Shown here piece by piece: positions 11,849-17,187 of a stretch of 64,000 nt of DNA. The notes below the pieces were generated by a model, which saw only the letters and a list, made by a program, of their open reading frames with translations, was not told the DNA's origin and made no database searches. The translations under genes and the position numbers were made by a program. This DNA is from Kibdelosporangium persicum. Its GTDB lineage: Bacteria; Actinomycetota; Actinomycetes; Mycobacteriales; Pseudonocardiaceae. The stretch lies in assembly GCF_013280595.1 (NCBI RefSeq), contig NZ_JAAATY010000002.1:248001-312000 (forward strand), written 5' to 3'. Position 1 is the stretch's first letter; the number at the start of each line of letters is the position of its first letter.

Positions 11849-12603
11849 CCCTGCTCGCCGTCGAACGGATCAAACTCTTCTCCACCCGGTCGCCGTGGTG
11901 GTGCATGGGCCTCGCCCTGACCCTGATGGTCGGTTTCGCCGCGCTGGTCAGCGGCTCGGCCGACAGCGCGGGCGACGTCAGCGTGCCCGTCACGCAGTTC
12001 GGCTACAGCTTCGCGCTGGCGGTCATCCTCGTGCTCGCCACGCTGTCGGTGACCACCGAATACCGCTTCAACACGATCAGGACCACGTTCCAGGCCGTGC
12101 CCAGCCGCACGTCCGCCCTGCTGGCCAAGACGACCGTGGTCGCGCTGGTCTCCGGGGTGCTCGGCACGATCGCCGCGTTCGGTTCGCTCGGCGTCGCCAT
12201 GCTGCTGCAGCCGGACGCCAGCCTCGCGCTCAACAGCGAGGCCGACTGGCGCCAGGTCGCCGGCACCGGTCTGGTGACGTTCTTCGCCGCCGTCGTCGCG
12301 GTCGCGGTCGGCGTCCTGATCCGGCACACGGCCGGCGCGGTGTCGGTGCTGCTGGCGTACTCGCTGGTGGCCGAGGGCCTGGTCCAGCTGATCCCGCGGG
12401 TCGGTGACGACATCCACCAGTGGCTGCCGTTCAACGTCGCCAACCGGTTCCTCACCGGCAACCCGGACGTGGCCGTGGTCTTCGAGGGCCCCGGGGCGTC
12501 GACCAGCACGCTGAGCCCGTGGGCGGCGCTGGCCTACTTCGCCGGGTTCTCGATCGTCATGCTGCTCATCGCGCTCGTCACCGCCAAGCGGCGGGACGCC
12601 TGA
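11845..12603 (+). CDS. ABC transporter permease
   Basis: The 252-residue integral membrane protein has six predicted transmembrane helices, with the ABC-2 feature VTTEYRFNTIRTTF after the second helix and a final helix followed by AKRRDA. It pairs with the ATPase at 10910-11848 as a homodimeric exporter permease. The substrate is not evident; the neighbouring TetR and SDR suggest a small-molecule or drug response. Translation is coupled to the ATPase through an ATGA overlap, and a terminator lies at 12664-12696. Confidence 0.93.
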   Translation: MTLLAVERIKLFSTRSPWWCMGLALTLMVGFAALVSGSADSAGDVSVPVTQFGYSFALAVILVLATLSVTTEYRFNTIRTTFQAVPSRTSALLAKTTVVALVSGVLGTIAAFGSLGVAMLLQPDASLALNSEADWRQVAGTGLVTFFAAVVAVAVGVLIRHTAGAVSVLLAYSLVAEGLVQLIPRVGDDIHQWLPFNVANRFLTGNPDVAVVFEGPGASTSTLSPWAALAYFAGFSIVMLLIALVTAKRRDA

Positions 12604-12663
12604 ACAAAAGAACCACCTGGTGGGTCCGTCGGGGGTCCCACTGGGCGGGACGGGGGATGAGAG

Positions 12664-12696
12664 CCCGGGCCACCTTTCGGGGGGTGGCCCGGGTTT
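12664..12696 (+). terminator. Intrinsic terminator after the ABC operon
   Basis: CCCGGGCCACC (12664-12674) pairs with GGTGGCCCGGG (12683-12693) and is followed by TTT, 60 bases after the permease stop. The remainder of 12604-12887 shows no other gene. Confidence 0.88.
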
Positions 12697-12887
12697 CTCT
12701 GTTGGTCTGGTCACGGACGGTTGCGATCACTGCCGTGCCTTGCAAGTATGTAACGAGCGATCTAGCGCACGCGGCCCGGTTAAGACCACGTTAAGAGGCT
12801 GTGAGGTGCCGCACGTGTCGCGGACAACGATGTTCGACTGGCGCTCAGATCGATGTTGACTCCGTCACGAACCATCGGAGGTGGACG

Positions 12888-13490
12888 TTGACGGTCGCAG
12901 ATGTAAGCGCACCAACCGAACCGCCGGAGCCGGTCATGCCGAACAACGGCGTGGGGCGCCGCGAACTACGAGTCGAACCGATGATCGAGCTCGAATGGTC
13001 GCAGGCCATCGAGCCCCACACCGCGCTGGCATCGATCGCGGCCGCGACCAGGCCAGCCGAGACCCGGCGCGCGTGGGTACACCGTGCACCAGAGGACCAA
13101 GTGCTGGCGCTGTACCGCTCAGCGTCCGAAGTCGACCACGAGCTCGCCGCCCCGTGGTGGCTGAAGGCGTTGGCAGCAGGCGAGTTGAGCTCACGGGCCG
13201 AAGGCTTCCTGCTGGAGGACCGGGTCGGCAAACTGCTGGATGCCCGTCCTGGCTGGGTTTTCGTGCCGTGGAGCAGTGACGGCGACTGCGGCTATTGGGA
13301 GTACATGCCATCCGAACGCCGGGTGAGCGGACCCGCGGTGCCGACCACCCTGGTGCTCACCCACCGGCACACCGGGTGGCTGGACATCTATCCCGTGCAC
13401 CTCACGACCGGCCGGGCGCCGGCGCCGCTGGCCGTGAAGGGAATGGGCGACCTGCGGTCCAACCTCGCCCGCTGGGAGAGCGTGTTCTAG
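12888..13490 (+). CDS. Conserved-type hypothetical protein
   Basis: I do not recognise this 200-residue protein. It has no signal peptide or membrane helix. The N-terminus is proline-rich and disordered. The core has many tryptophans, for example APWWLKALAAG, GWVFVPWSSDGDCGYWEY and HRHTGWLDIYPVHL, suggesting a compact alpha/beta fold. A TTG start at 12888 is favoured because GGAGGTGG lies at 12877-12884; a longer frame from 12801 has a low-quality, basic N-terminus. It lies 10 bases before trmB on the same strand, so the two may be co-transcribed. Confidence 0.7.
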   Translation: MTVADVSAPTEPPEPVMPNNGVGRRELRVEPMIELEWSQAIEPHTALASIAAATRPAETRRAWVHRAPEDQVLALYRSASEVDHELAAPWWLKALAAGELSSRAEGFLLEDRVGKLLDARPGWVFVPWSSDGDCGYWEYMPSERRVSGPAVPTTLVLTHRHTGWLDIYPVHLTTGRAPAPLAVKGMGDLRSNLARWESVF

Positions 13491-13500
13491 CGTCTTCGCC

Positions 13501-14199
13501 GTGGAACAACAGCTGCACAGGCGCACGATCGTCAGCTACGTCCAGCGTGGCGGGCGGATGACGGCCGGCCAGGAACGGGCGTGGGAACGGTATTGGCCGC
13601 GGCTCGGCCAGGACGTCTCCGCCCTGCCCGCCGGACCGGTGGACACCGGCGCGTGGTTCGGCCGGTCCGCGCCCGTGGTGCTGGAGATCGGTTCGGGGAT
13701 GGGCGAGACGACGGCCAAACTGGCCGCCGCCGCGCCGGAGGTGAACTACCTGGCCGTCGAGGTGTACCAGGCCGGCCTGGCGCAGCTGATGATGCGTGCC
13801 GCCGAGCTCGGGCTGACCAACCTCCGGCTGCTGCGTGGTGACGCGGTCATCCTGCTCACCGACCACATCGCACCGGACTCGCTGTCCGAGGTCCGGCTGT
13901 ACTTCCCGGACCCGTGGCCGAAGAAGCGGCACCACAAGCGCCGGATCGTCCAGCCGGACTTCGTGTCACTGGTGGCGTCGCGGCTGGCGCCCGGCGGCCG
14001 GTTCCACATGGCGACCGACTGGGAGCACTACGCCGAGCACATGCTCGAGGTCTGCACGGCCGAACCCGGGTTGCGCAACGTCCACTCCGGATGGGCGCCG
14101 CGGCCGCAATGGCGTCCGGTGACCAAGTTCGAGTCGCGGGCGCATGCCGAGGGCCGGGACATCCGGGATCTCATCTTCGAGAAAGCGCACAGCGCCTGA
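13501..14199 (+). CDS. trmB: tRNA (guanine-N7-)-methyltransferase
   Basis: The 232-residue enzyme methylates G46 of tRNA to m7G using SAM. Family marks are EIGSGMGETT for SAM binding, the acidic LRGDAV strand, and the diagnostic YFPDPWPKKRHHKRR stretch that contacts tRNA. A WEHYAEHM segment and the terminal RAHAEGRDIRDLIFEK also fit TrmB. Its length matches the family. The GTG start at 13501 lies 10 bases after the hypothetical gene. Confidence 0.95.
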   Translation: MEQQLHRRTIVSYVQRGGRMTAGQERAWERYWPRLGQDVSALPAGPVDTGAWFGRSAPVVLEIGSGMGETTAKLAAAAPEVNYLAVEVYQAGLAQLMMRAAELGLTNLRLLRGDAVILLTDHIAPDSLSEVRLYFPDPWPKKRHHKRRIVQPDFVSLVASRLAPGGRFHMATDWEHYAEHMLEVCTAEPGLRNVHSGWAPRPQWRPVTKFESRAHAEGRDIRDLIFEKAHSA

Positions 14200-14252
14200 C
14201 GATCAACCACTGAGAGTAGTTCGTTCGACTGCGGCAGTACCCGACCAGGTAG

Positions 14253-15236
14253 TTGAGCCGGGTGGGACATTCGGCCGATGAACACCGCGTGACTGCCCTG
14301 CTGTCAGCCGAGATGGTCGCCGCTGAGGAGTTCCTGCACCGGTTTCACGGTGCCCGCCCGCGCGCAGGCCATGTGCAGATAAGGCTCAACAAGGTCCGTG
14401 CGCAGATCCTGGCGACCGGGACGTACGAACACACCCGTGCGGAACTCGCCTACGGCGCACGGATCGCCCTGCGGGACAGCAGCGTGTACACCGACGGCGT
14501 GCCGTGGCGTGAACTGTTGGTCCGTGACCTGCGTGCGGCACGGACCACCAACCAGGTCGCGACCGCGTGCGTACAACACCTACGGCTCGCGGCGGGCAAC
14601 GGCCGGGTCCGTCCCACCGTGACGATCTTCGCGCCGAACGGCCCGCGCGTGGTCAACGAACAGCTGATCCGCTACGCCGGTTACGCGCAGCACGGCCAAG
14701 TGCTGGGCGACCGCAGGCATGTGGCGTTCACCGAGACCGTCCGCAAGATGGGCTGGTGTCCGCCCACCACACGCAGCGCCTTCGACCTGCTGCCCCTGGT
14801 GGTGCAGGACGAGGAACAGGGCACGCGGCTGTTCGGGTTGCCGCGTGACGTCGTGCGGGAGATTCCGCTGGAGCACCCCGGGCTCGACTGGTTCGCCGGT
14901 CTCGGCCTGCGCTGGCACGCGATCGGTGCGTGCTCACGGCGGCTGTCGATCGGCGGCGTGCGGTATCCGGTGGTGTTCAACGGGATCTCCACGTCCTCGG
15001 CGATCGGCGCGGAGGCGCTGGGCGACGACCGCGCGTACGGCTTCGGCCGGGTGATCGCCGACCGCCTCGGTCTGGACACGTCGGCCGACGAATCGGTGTG
15101 GCGAGAACGCGCCGTGCTCGAACTCGACCGTGCGGTGCTGCACTCCTTCCGTGCGGCTGGAGTGACCATCGCATCGCGGGACGCGCGTCCGGCACGGCGC
15201 GAGTCGGGCAGGTACCCGCCAAGCTTCCTGGGATAA
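14253..15236 (+). CDS. Nitric-oxide-synthase-fold protein lacking the heme cysteine
   Basis: The 327-residue product aligns along most of its length with bacterial NOS oxygenase. Shared landmarks include RPTVTIF, EQLIRYAGY, GDRRHVAFTE, MGW, FDLLPL, a LPR..V.E.P..HP segment, GGVRY and VFNG. However, the heme-thiolate signature WRNSNRCIGR of true NOS reads LRDSSVYTDG here: Cys is Tyr79 and Trp is Leu73. The arginine-binding segment FNGWYMGTEIG reads FNGISTSSAIG, so the catalytic Glu is Ala250. The C-terminal pterin segment is absent. It is therefore not a normal NO synthase, but the frame is intact with strong codon bias. TTG 14253, GTG 14262 and GTG 14289 are possible starts. The amidohydrolase follows after 9 bases. 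Confidence 0.85.
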   Translation: MSRVGHSADEHRVTALLSAEMVAAEEFLHRFHGARPRAGHVQIRLNKVRAQILATGTYEHTRAELAYGARIALRDSSVYTDGVPWRELLVRDLRAARTTNQVATACVQHLRLAAGNGRVRPTVTIFAPNGPRVVNEQLIRYAGYAQHGQVLGDRRHVAFTETVRKMGWCPPTTRSAFDLLPLVVQDEEQGTRLFGLPRDVVREIPLEHPGLDWFAGLGLRWHAIGACSRRLSIGGVRYPVVFNGISTSSAIGAEALGDDRAYGFGRVIADRLGLDTSADESVWRERAVLELDRAVLHSFRAAGVTIASRDARPARRESGRYPPSFLG

Positions 15237-15245
15237 CGTCTGCAC

Positions 15246-16556
15246 ATGCGACAGCGTTTGCGTGCTCCGATCGTGCTGCCCTGCGACCCGGATTGCTCGG
15301 TGCTGCGGAACGCCGTGGTGGACATCGAGGACGACGGCCGCATCGGGTACGTCGGCCCGCTGGCCGACGCCCCCGGTGACGAGCCGGTCACCGACGTATC
15401 CGGAATCCTGCTGCCTGGCCTGGTGAACACGCACGCGCACACGCCGATGACCGTGCTGCGCGGGATGGGCGGCGACCTGCCGCTGCTGCGCTGGCTGCAG
15501 GAGGTCATCTGGCCGGCCGAGGCGCGGCTGAGCCCGGCCGACATGCGGGCCGGGATGCTGCTCGGGTCGGTCGAGATGCTCCGCGCCGGCGTGACCACGA
15601 GCGTGGAGATGTACTTCCACCTCGACGAACTGGCCGAGGCGGTGCTGCGGACCGGCGGGCGCGCCGTGCTGACCGGCGGGATCATCGAGGCGCCCGGCTT
15701 CAAGTGGCGGTCGCTGCTCGACGACGTCAGCGGCTTGATCGACAGTCAGGGCTTGCGGTTCGGCCCGGGCGACCGGATCGAGATCGGGTACGGGCCGCAT
15801 TCGGCGTACACGCTCTCGCCCGAAGTCCTCACCGAAGTCATGGCCGCCGCACACGAACGTGACGCCCTGGCGCACATCCACGTGGCCGAGGCCGCCCTGG
15901 AGGACGCGGACCAGCGCACCGCGCACGGCTCGGTGCCCAAGTTGCTGGAATCACTGGGTTTCTACGGCGGCCGGGTGCTCGCCGCGCACTGCGTGCACCT
16001 GTCCGACGAGGACATCGCCATCTTCGCCCGGCACGGGGTCGCGGTCGCGCACTGCCCGGGCTCGAACGCCAAGCTCGCGTCCGGCATCGCCCGCGTCCGT
16101 GACCTGCGCGAGGCAGGCGTGACCGTCGGCCTCGGCACGGACGGGCCGGCCAGCAACGACGACCTCGACCTGTGGGAGGAGGTCCGGCTCGCCGCGATGC
16201 TCAGCCGTCTGTCCACTATGGACGCCTCAGTGCTGGTCGCGCCGGATGTCCTGTTGATGGCCACCCGCGTGGGCGCCGCCGCGATCGGCCGGGACGACAT
16301 CGGCGCACTGGAGGCAGGGCGCTGGGCCGACATCGTGCACATCTCGACCGACGCGCCCGCGTTCGCCGCGGGCGTGGACGTCCCCGACGCCCAACTGCTG
16401 TCCAATGTGGTCTGGGCCGCCGGCGCCCGTCAGGTCCAGGACGTCTGGGTGGCGGGCGACCAGGTCGTGCGCGACTACGAGCCGACGCGGGTCGACCGCT
16501 TCGAGATCCAGGCCCAGGCGGGCGCGGTCACCCAGCGGTTGCTCTCGGGCGGATGA
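15246..16556 (+). CDS. Amidohydrolase, S-adenosylhomocysteine/methylthioadenosine deaminase type
   Basis: The 436-residue protein is a metal-dependent amidohydrolase. Metal ligands are visible as NTHAH (His63, His65), a His in LAHIHVAEA, a His in AAHCVHLS and Asp in GTDGPASNDDLD. These are arranged as in MtaD/SsnA-type deaminases that act on adenosine derivatives or other amino-heterocycles. The beta-sandwich ends are intact and length is normal (about 430). It follows the NOS-fold gene by 9 bases, so they are likely one operon. Its 3' end overlaps the convergent SDR gene by 29 bases. Substrate assignment within the family is uncertain. Confidence 0.88.
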   Translation: MRQRLRAPIVLPCDPDCSVLRNAVVDIEDDGRIGYVGPLADAPGDEPVTDVSGILLPGLVNTHAHTPMTVLRGMGGDLPLLRWLQEVIWPAEARLSPADMRAGMLLGSVEMLRAGVTTSVEMYFHLDELAEAVLRTGGRAVLTGGIIEAPGFKWRSLLDDVSGLIDSQGLRFGPGDRIEIGYGPHSAYTLSPEVLTEVMAAAHERDALAHIHVAEAALEDADQRTAHGSVPKLLESLGFYGGRVLAAHCVHLSDEDIAIFARHGVAVAHCPGSNAKLASGIARVRDLREAGVTVGLGTDGPASNDDLDLWEEVRLAAMLSRLSTMDASVLVAPDVLLMATRVGAAAIGRDDIGALEAGRWADIVHISTDAPAFAAGVDVPDAQLLSNVVWAAGARQVQDVWVAGDQVVRDYEPTRVDRFEIQAQAGAVTQRLLSGG

Positions 16557-17187
16557 CCACTTCGGTGGGGTGCGCGTCGGCAGGCGCGGTGATCGCGTTG
16601 AGCACGAACTGGGCGACGGTCTCGGGCTTGAGGTACTTCTCCGGCTCGTAGTCGCCCTGTTCGGTGGCCCGTACCCCCCGCTGCATCTCGGTGGCCGTGC
16701 GACCAGGGAAGACCGAGGTGACCCGGATGTCGGGTTCCTCGGTCCGCAGGGCGTCGGCGAAGGCGCGCAGCGCGTACTTGCTCGCGGCGTAGGCACCCCA
16801 GTTCGCGTTCACCCGCAGCCCGGCGCCCGAGTTGATCAGGATGACGTGCCCGTTCGCGGCCCTGAGCTTCGGCAACAGCACACGGGTGAGCTCGGCGACC
16901 GCGATGACGTTGAGCTCGAGCGTCTCCCGCCAGGTCCGCACCGACGTCTGGCTCAGCGGCGCGATCTCGACCATGCCCGCACTGTGCACGAGCACGTCCA
17001 GGTCCGGGATCTCCGCCGTCCTGGCCGCCAGGGCGTCGAGGTCCCGCAGGTCCACCGGCCACGGCCGGCCCGGCAGCCCTTCCGGGATCTTGCGACCACC
17101 CAGCCACACCTCGTGCGTCGGCGCCAGAACGTGGGCGATCGCCGCCCCGATCCCACCGGACGCACCCGTCACCAAAGCTGTCTGCAC
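16528..17187 (-). CDS. Short-chain dehydrogenase/reductase
   Basis: This 219-residue classical SDR has TGASGGIG at residues 7-14, HSAG in place of NNAG, a catalytic Ser in INSGAG and YAASK for the Tyr/Lys pair. The arginine after beta-2 (GGRK) favours NADPH. Length is short but typical for compact bacterial SDRs. It is convergent with and overlaps the amidohydrolase by 29 bases. The GTG start at 17187 lies 31 bases from MITE copy 2, which therefore sits in its promoter region. Confidence 0.9.
   Translation of the reverse strand: MQTALVTGASGGIGAAIAHVLAPTHEVWLGGRKIPEGLPGRPWPVDLRDLDALAARTAEIPDLDVLVHSAGMVEIAPLSQTSVRTWRETLELNVIAVAELTRVLLPKLRAANGHVILINSGAGLRVNANWGAYAASKYALRAFADALRTEEPDIRVTSVFPGRTATEMQRGVRATEQGDYEPEKYLKPETVAQFVLNAITAPADAHPTEVVIRPRATAG

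Follow-up and report, generated by a model that had tools for sequence, protein, structure and literature searches.

A nitric oxide synthase-like protein of Kibdelosporangium persicum with Tyr at the axial heme position, its subfamily, and its locus

Background

Nitric oxide synthase (NOS) is a well-studied heme enzyme whose axial Cys serves as its signature, and a gene that belongs to the NOS family and is devoid of this residue raises the question of what its product is retained for. Such a gene is located in a stretch of 64,000 nucleotides of Kibdelosporangium persicum (contig NZ_JAAATY010000002.1, positions 248,001 to 312,000), henceforth called the window, to which coordinates given without a further identifier refer. 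A preliminary description, made from the letters of the window, had claimed that the protein is a NOS relative which lost the heme Cys, the arginine-binding Glu, and the C-terminal pterin region, and that the gene is not decaying. In the literature searched, where subscription papers were thinly covered, we found no account of a NOS-like protein that is devoid of this Cys, and we regard the protein as a variant of a known family without earlier description in that literature. The features of the locus are as follows.

12801–13490: conserved gene of 229 amino acids upstream of trmB, without Pfam match, present in 38/46 NOSL stretches (NOSL is defined below)
13501–14199, + strand: trmB, tRNA (guanosine46-N7)-methyltransferase (TIGR00091, 163.8 bits)
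14200–14288, + strand: possible regulatory DNA between trmB and the probable start of the NOS-like gene, two blocks largely conserved, 7 members
14253–15236, + strand: NOS-like protein of class D (Tyr79/Ala250, without the pterin region; class defined below), 327 amino acids as listed, GTG 14289 being the probable start
14487–14489, + strand: codon of Tyr79, replacing the axial heme Cys (alignment to solved NOS)
15000–15002, + strand: codon of Ala250, replacing the substrate-binding Glu (alignment to solved NOS)
15246–16556, + strand: TRZ/ATZ-type amidohydrolase (PF01979), 9 nt past the stop of the NOS-like gene

Gene model and flanking features

The open frame at 14253–15236 (+) comprises 327 amino acids when counted from a TTG at 14253, a start that is doubtful. 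Judged from sequence conservation, GTG 14289 (VTAL) is probably the true start; it was kept in 7/7 members compared and aligned with the script-called MTAL start of Cys-bearing relatives. Upstream of it, the blocks within 14200–14288 showed unusual conservation across 7 relatives and are possible regulatory DNA, and no promoter-like match was found within 12600–16700. The nearest solved relative of the amidohydrolase in the PDB was 4f0r (MTA/SAH deaminase, E 7.3e-78).

Family membership and lost active-site residues

The protein matched PF02898 with 275.7 bits (E 6.9e-82, gathering score 22.7), and solved NOS structures were its best PDB matches, with the same result using a profile of six relatives, so the claimed relationship to NOS was borne out, the fold being assigned by sequence alone. 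The match covered residues 23–308 and profile positions 8–300 of 362, i.e., it stopped about 60 profile positions early. Residue equivalences were read from the alignment to solved NOS (2flq, eNOS). The heme loop LRDSSVYTDG aligned on WRHSNRCIGR without gaps, so that the axial Cys corresponds to Tyr79; likewise, FNGISTSSAIG aligned on FNGWYMGTEIG without gaps, so that the substrate Glu, which in NOS binds the guanidine of arginine and was present in 35/35 canonical rows, corresponds to Ala250. The proximal Trp, also found in 35/35 canonical rows, was replaced by Leu73; according to the accessible part of the source, this Trp hydrogen-bonds the axial Cys in NOS (PMC9500659). Only 23 residues followed Val304 in the window protein versus 62–108 in 12 canonical rows. 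A loose C-terminal DWxW pattern, which we take to be linked to pterin, was present in 32/35 canonical rows and absent from the window protein; this absence and the early end of the profile match agree with the claimed loss of the pterin region.

The preliminary description had named Cys169 and Cys226 as residues that might occupy the axial position instead. The Cys residues of the protein are 106, 169, and 227 (the latter being position 226 of that description). The positions of Cys169 and Cys227 held Arg in five aligned relatives, and that of Cys106 held Cys in 46/46 NOSL rows as well as in 10/12 canonical rows, which own a separate axial Cys. Another Cys as axial ligand was ruled out by these sequence alignments, since 169 and 227 are not conserved and 106 is common to canonical NOS; as far as sequence can tell, neither of the two named residues can substitute. 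An AlphaFold2 model, computed from only six rows (L003–L007 and the window protein), had a mean pLDDT of 43.2 and a pTM of 0.28, too low for use.

Because the protein has lost the thiolate ligand, the adjacent Trp, the Glu that binds guanidine, and the pterin region, the residue pattern indicates that the protein is very probably unable to make NO the NOS way. A PF02898 match alone, even one as far above the cut-off as here, is thus no evidence of NO synthesis.

The NOSL subfamily and the order of losses

In the window's family, 255/390 genomes had a match at 1e-20 or better, and the matches fell into two NOS-like groups. Canonical NOS (class A) has the Cys, the Glu, the proximal Trp, and the DWxW-type motif. 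The other group, here named NOSL, is a separate clade without proximal Trp (0/28 NOSL rows, 27 with Leu and 1 with Val, vs. 35/35 canonical rows) and without the DWxW-type motif. Within NOSL, Cys and Glu are both present in classes B0 and B; in class C, the Cys remains and the Glu is replaced by Ala, Thr, Gly, or Ser; and class D has Tyr and Ala. In residue tables, the Glu was kept in B0 (2/2) and B (8/8) and lost in C (9/9) and D (5/5), and the axial Cys was lost in class D only among the canonical and NOSL rows. The window protein belongs to NOSL by clade, by the absence of proximal Trp and DWxW-type motif, and by its position in the trmB-amidohydrolase locus. With classes B and C it shares the clade, mostly the locus, and the loss of the DWxW-type motif and proximal Trp, but B and C keep the Cys and B also keeps the Glu. 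Compared with bacterial NOS oxygenase (PF02898; 2flq, 1m7v), it is of the same sequence family over about residues 22–310, and 40 positions were invariant across 58 rows of classes A–D, but it is without axial Cys, proximal Trp, substrate Glu, and DWxW-type motif.

A first tree, built without the two motif segments, separated 46 NOSL rows from 13 canonical rows at 100/99, with C+D at 100/99 and D at 100/100; on this tree, the axial site changed once (Cys-to-Tyr) and the Glu site six times. The corresponding values in a second tree were 99/94 for NOSL, 97/90 for C+D, and 100/100 for D. A clade sharing Tyr79 and Ala250, for which the preliminary description had proposed to look, therefore exists in both trees, and its nesting among class C rows received moderate support (93/76 and 95/85 in the first and second tree, respectively). 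The order of losses within NOSL was proximal Trp and pterin motif, then Glu, then Cys. This series is not strictly linear, as two further Cys-bearing types differ at the Glu site, a second Kibdelosporangium paralogue having Asp and genus g43 having Thr. The second Kibdelosporangium-group paralogue (L083–L086), which keeps the Cys and has Asp for the substrate Glu, sits outside the trmB-amidohydrolase locus, about 125–130 kb from the Tyr-type gene in genomes where both could be placed.

Conservation and selection within the genus

A scan of species genomes yielded six relatives that were 68–84% identical to the window protein; their records are Kibdelosporangium philippinense, K. aridum, K. banguiense, Actinocrispum wychmicini, Actinosynnema sp. 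ALI-1.44, and Rhodococcus rhodnii NRRL B-16535, the titles of the last two looking misplaced. A class D gene was present in 8/8 sampled genomes of the window's genus (g1), intact in seven (G027 included) and frameshifted in one draft assembly (L008). All eight members carried Tyr and Ala at the two sites (both pieces of the frameshifted copy counted), which rules out chance as the source of Tyr79/Ala250 and agrees with the replacements read from the alignments above.

Across 21 pairs of the seven class D genes, the median dN/dS was 0.175 (range 0.046–0.268). In the same genomes, the values were 0.150 for trmB, 0.151 for the upstream gene without Pfam match, 0.164 for the amidohydrolase, 0.226 for the SDR gene, and 0.365 for the ABC permease gene; among the pairs tried, class C gave 0.22–0.42 and class B 0.27–0.32. 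The earlier argument against decay, based on an intact frame and full codon bias, stood in its first part, given seven intact genes of eight and a dN/dS like that of the neighbours, and needs a small correction in its second, since the GC3 of the NOS-like gene (0.838) was slightly below that of trmB (0.909) and the amidohydrolase (0.927). The protein is very probably retained in this soil bacterium and its close relatives for another job than NO synthesis. A NOSL-type gene in two frames (L145; genome G023, genus g24) was also encountered and may be a pseudogene or reflect an error of assembly.

Genomic locus

Homologues of the window's genes were searched in 46 NOSL stretches (window excluded), some of which stop at contig ends. 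Besides the gene upstream of trmB (38 stretches), homologues were found of the ABC ATPase gene in 36, of trmB in 37, mostly directly upstream of NOSL, of the amidohydrolase gene in 33, and of the SDR gene in 32. NOSL and amidohydrolase were separated by less than 50 nt or called as overlapping in 7/7 class D and 8/13 class C stretches; the called overlaps stem from longest-start calling, and the class D junctions are 9–11 nt. In class B, the distance between the two genes often exceeded 1.3 kb, and in several cases a histidine kinase gene lay in the interval. The amidohydrolase was present in 20/20 family genomes tested, 19 of which are without NOSL, and in one genome (G018) it directly follows trmB with no NOSL. 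The amidohydrolase is therefore a neighbour that does not depend on NOSL, and dependence was rejected as an argument on these grounds. Of the claimed operon partner, the adjacency remained (9 nt gap), which is weak evidence. At many class B loci (within L089–L107), a HisKA_3 histidine kinase gene was found about 0.3 kb or less after NOSL (e.g., L097:9449-10621(+)), and similar kinase genes still adjoin the amidohydrolase in several NOSL-free genomes.

The order trmB, canonical NOS, amidohydrolase was found in 6/8 canonical NOS stretches of genus g5; of the others, one had trmB only and one neither. The NOS at the locus (L191, L193, L195–L198) carry Cys and a DWxW-type motif; the amidohydrolase of L193 lies 7 kb away. 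Descent of NOSL from these canonical NOS at the same locus was rejected (AU p 1e-5, the g5 group having been chosen after its synteny was seen). As NOSL and the NOS at the g5 locus are not sister groups, simple vertical descent does not account for the locus: there was either differential loss of ancient neighbours or a refilling of the slot.

Residue changes at heme-pocket positions

Class D rows shared Val78, where nearly all class B and C rows have Trp; Gly225, where all other rows have Pro; Ile245, where class A and nearly all class B rows have Trp and class C rows Val; and one-residue deletions beside 229 and 241. Pocket segments contained 5/10 sites changed in D versus 17/108 sites conserved in B and C (Fisher p 0.008), and at a looser cut-off 7/19 versus 24/150 (p 0.015); both p-values are descriptive, because the three segments were drawn after the residue table had been seen. 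Asn243 and Phe242, which we take to be the heme-stacking Phe of NOS, were kept in 5/5 class D rows, and Arg74 was invariant across 58 rows. The equivalents of Arg382 and Arg375 (presumably the Arg residues of the propionate/pterin side, in iNOS numbering) were lost in D.

Possible functions of the protein

The reading that we prefer, with a probability of about 0.6, is that the window protein is a pseudo-NOS without heme that has been kept for a binding or regulatory role. Active-site residues would have been lost stepwise in NOSL, a subfamily found for the most part at the trmB-amidohydrolase locus within a single actinobacterial family, with class D at the far end of the series. The former heme and arginine pocket would have been remodelled through Val78, Tyr79, Gly225, Ile245, and the deletions beside 229 and 241, most likely leaving no heme bound, and the remainder of the protein would be conserved as a non-catalytic module for the binding of either a small molecule or a partner protein, candidates for the latter being the adjacent amidohydrolase and the competent NOS of the same cell. 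A comparable case may be the pseudoglobin domain of Synechococcus NOS, which, in the accessible part of the report, does not bind heme (PMC12922734) and so resembles the window protein in being a former heme fold without heme, but which is a globin in a multidomain enzyme and not a NOS oxygenase fold. As related genes of one family show graded active-site loss under selection, a few natural proteins suffice to test directly what use a NOS scaffold has once heme, arginine, and pterin are no longer bound.

Alternatively, Tyr79 might ligate heme, making the protein a tyrosinate-heme protein on the NOS fold that acts as a peroxidase- or catalase-like enzyme, a heme store, or a gas sensor. Catalases and hemophores are known to use Tyr as heme ligand, all eight members have Tyr at the axial position, as expected of such a ligand, and the retained Phe242, Asn243, and Arg74 fit a heme site as well. 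If true, new catalase-, peroxidase-, or sensor-like chemistry would have arisen on the NOS scaffold via living intermediates in which the successive losses (Trp and pterin motif, Glu, and finally Cys to Tyr) can still be read. However, the surroundings of the ligand and the distal face are altered (Val78, Gly225, Ile245), the two Arg equivalents and the C-terminal region are gone, and because both sides of the heme pocket and the propionate/pterin-side Arg residues are changed, the heme-free pseudo-NOS is favoured, and a Tyr-ligated heme is considered unlikely. That the gene is a relic paralogue losing its function appears very unlikely: catalytic residues are lost, one class D copy is frameshifted, and the NOSL gene of genus g24 is also split, but seven of eight copies are intact with a dN/dS like that of trmB and the amidohydrolase, Tyr and Ala are fixed instead of drifting, and the C-terminal P-[ST]-F-L-G end was conserved in 6/6 aligned rows.

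Two more specific versions of the heme-free pseudo-NOS concern the candidate partners. A role in assisting or regulating the neighbouring amidohydrolase, which is MTA/SAH deaminase-like, would fit the tight junctions in classes D and C, but this enzyme occurs in 19/19 tested NOSL-free genomes and next to trmB without NOSL in G018, and in class B it is often distant or separated by the kinase gene, so that we consider this role quite unlikely. Pairing with, or regulation of, a competent NOS as an inactive partner has in its favour that 7/7 genomes with an intact class D gene (G000, G027, G065, G114, G131, G147, G163) also carry a longer NOS, recognised either by its Cys and Glu or by a score in the canonical range. 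Against it, the C-terminal part of NOS, which helps to form the dimer, is missing, and in 21 genomes, by count of the residue-typed tables, a NOSL of class B0, B, or C was the sole PF02898 match, so that NOSL need not pair with NOS; this independence covers B0, B, and C and not D, since every intact-D genome has the longer NOS. We rate such pairing as highly improbable. The other NOS of the window's genome (L151:6007-7140(+), G000:C45:18096-19085) keeps Cys, Glu, and Trp, ends in RYSSLVAP instead of the DWSWIVPP region, and has a long tree branch of 1.13. Within genus g1, seven PF02898 matches were counted in G093 and five in G027.

Cys losses among NOS-like proteins

A census comprised 199 distinct residue-typed NOS-like ORFs, a sample that leans to the best-scoring matches and is not random. 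After three fragments had been set aside, 196 informative ORFs remained, of which 184 had Cys at the axial position; Tyr was found in 8, every one from genus g1, and Gly in 4, every one from genus g58. About 107 rows were NOSL without proximal Trp by residue, and about 40 of these were without Glu. Scores in the NOSL range were absent outside the window's family from 397 order-level and 394 class-level genomes, where matches were mostly typed by score and not by residue. In a phylum sample of 296 genomes searched with a class E query (see below), 7 matched, and their NOS kept the Cys except in the window's own gene.

The Gly-bearing proteins, here named class E, had the Cys replaced by Gly in 4/4 genomes of genus g58 (family f13; L139–L142). 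They resemble class D in the independent loss of the axial Cys from a shortened NOS-like protein, but Cys was replaced by Gly, and Glu and proximal Trp are kept. As a second independent loss, class E indicates that loss of the Cys is a recurring theme and not a single curiosity. In the class E protein at L139:6427-7407(-), the Glu is kept and the C-terminus is shortened, and its gene adjoins an Orn/Lys/Arg decarboxylase-type gene.
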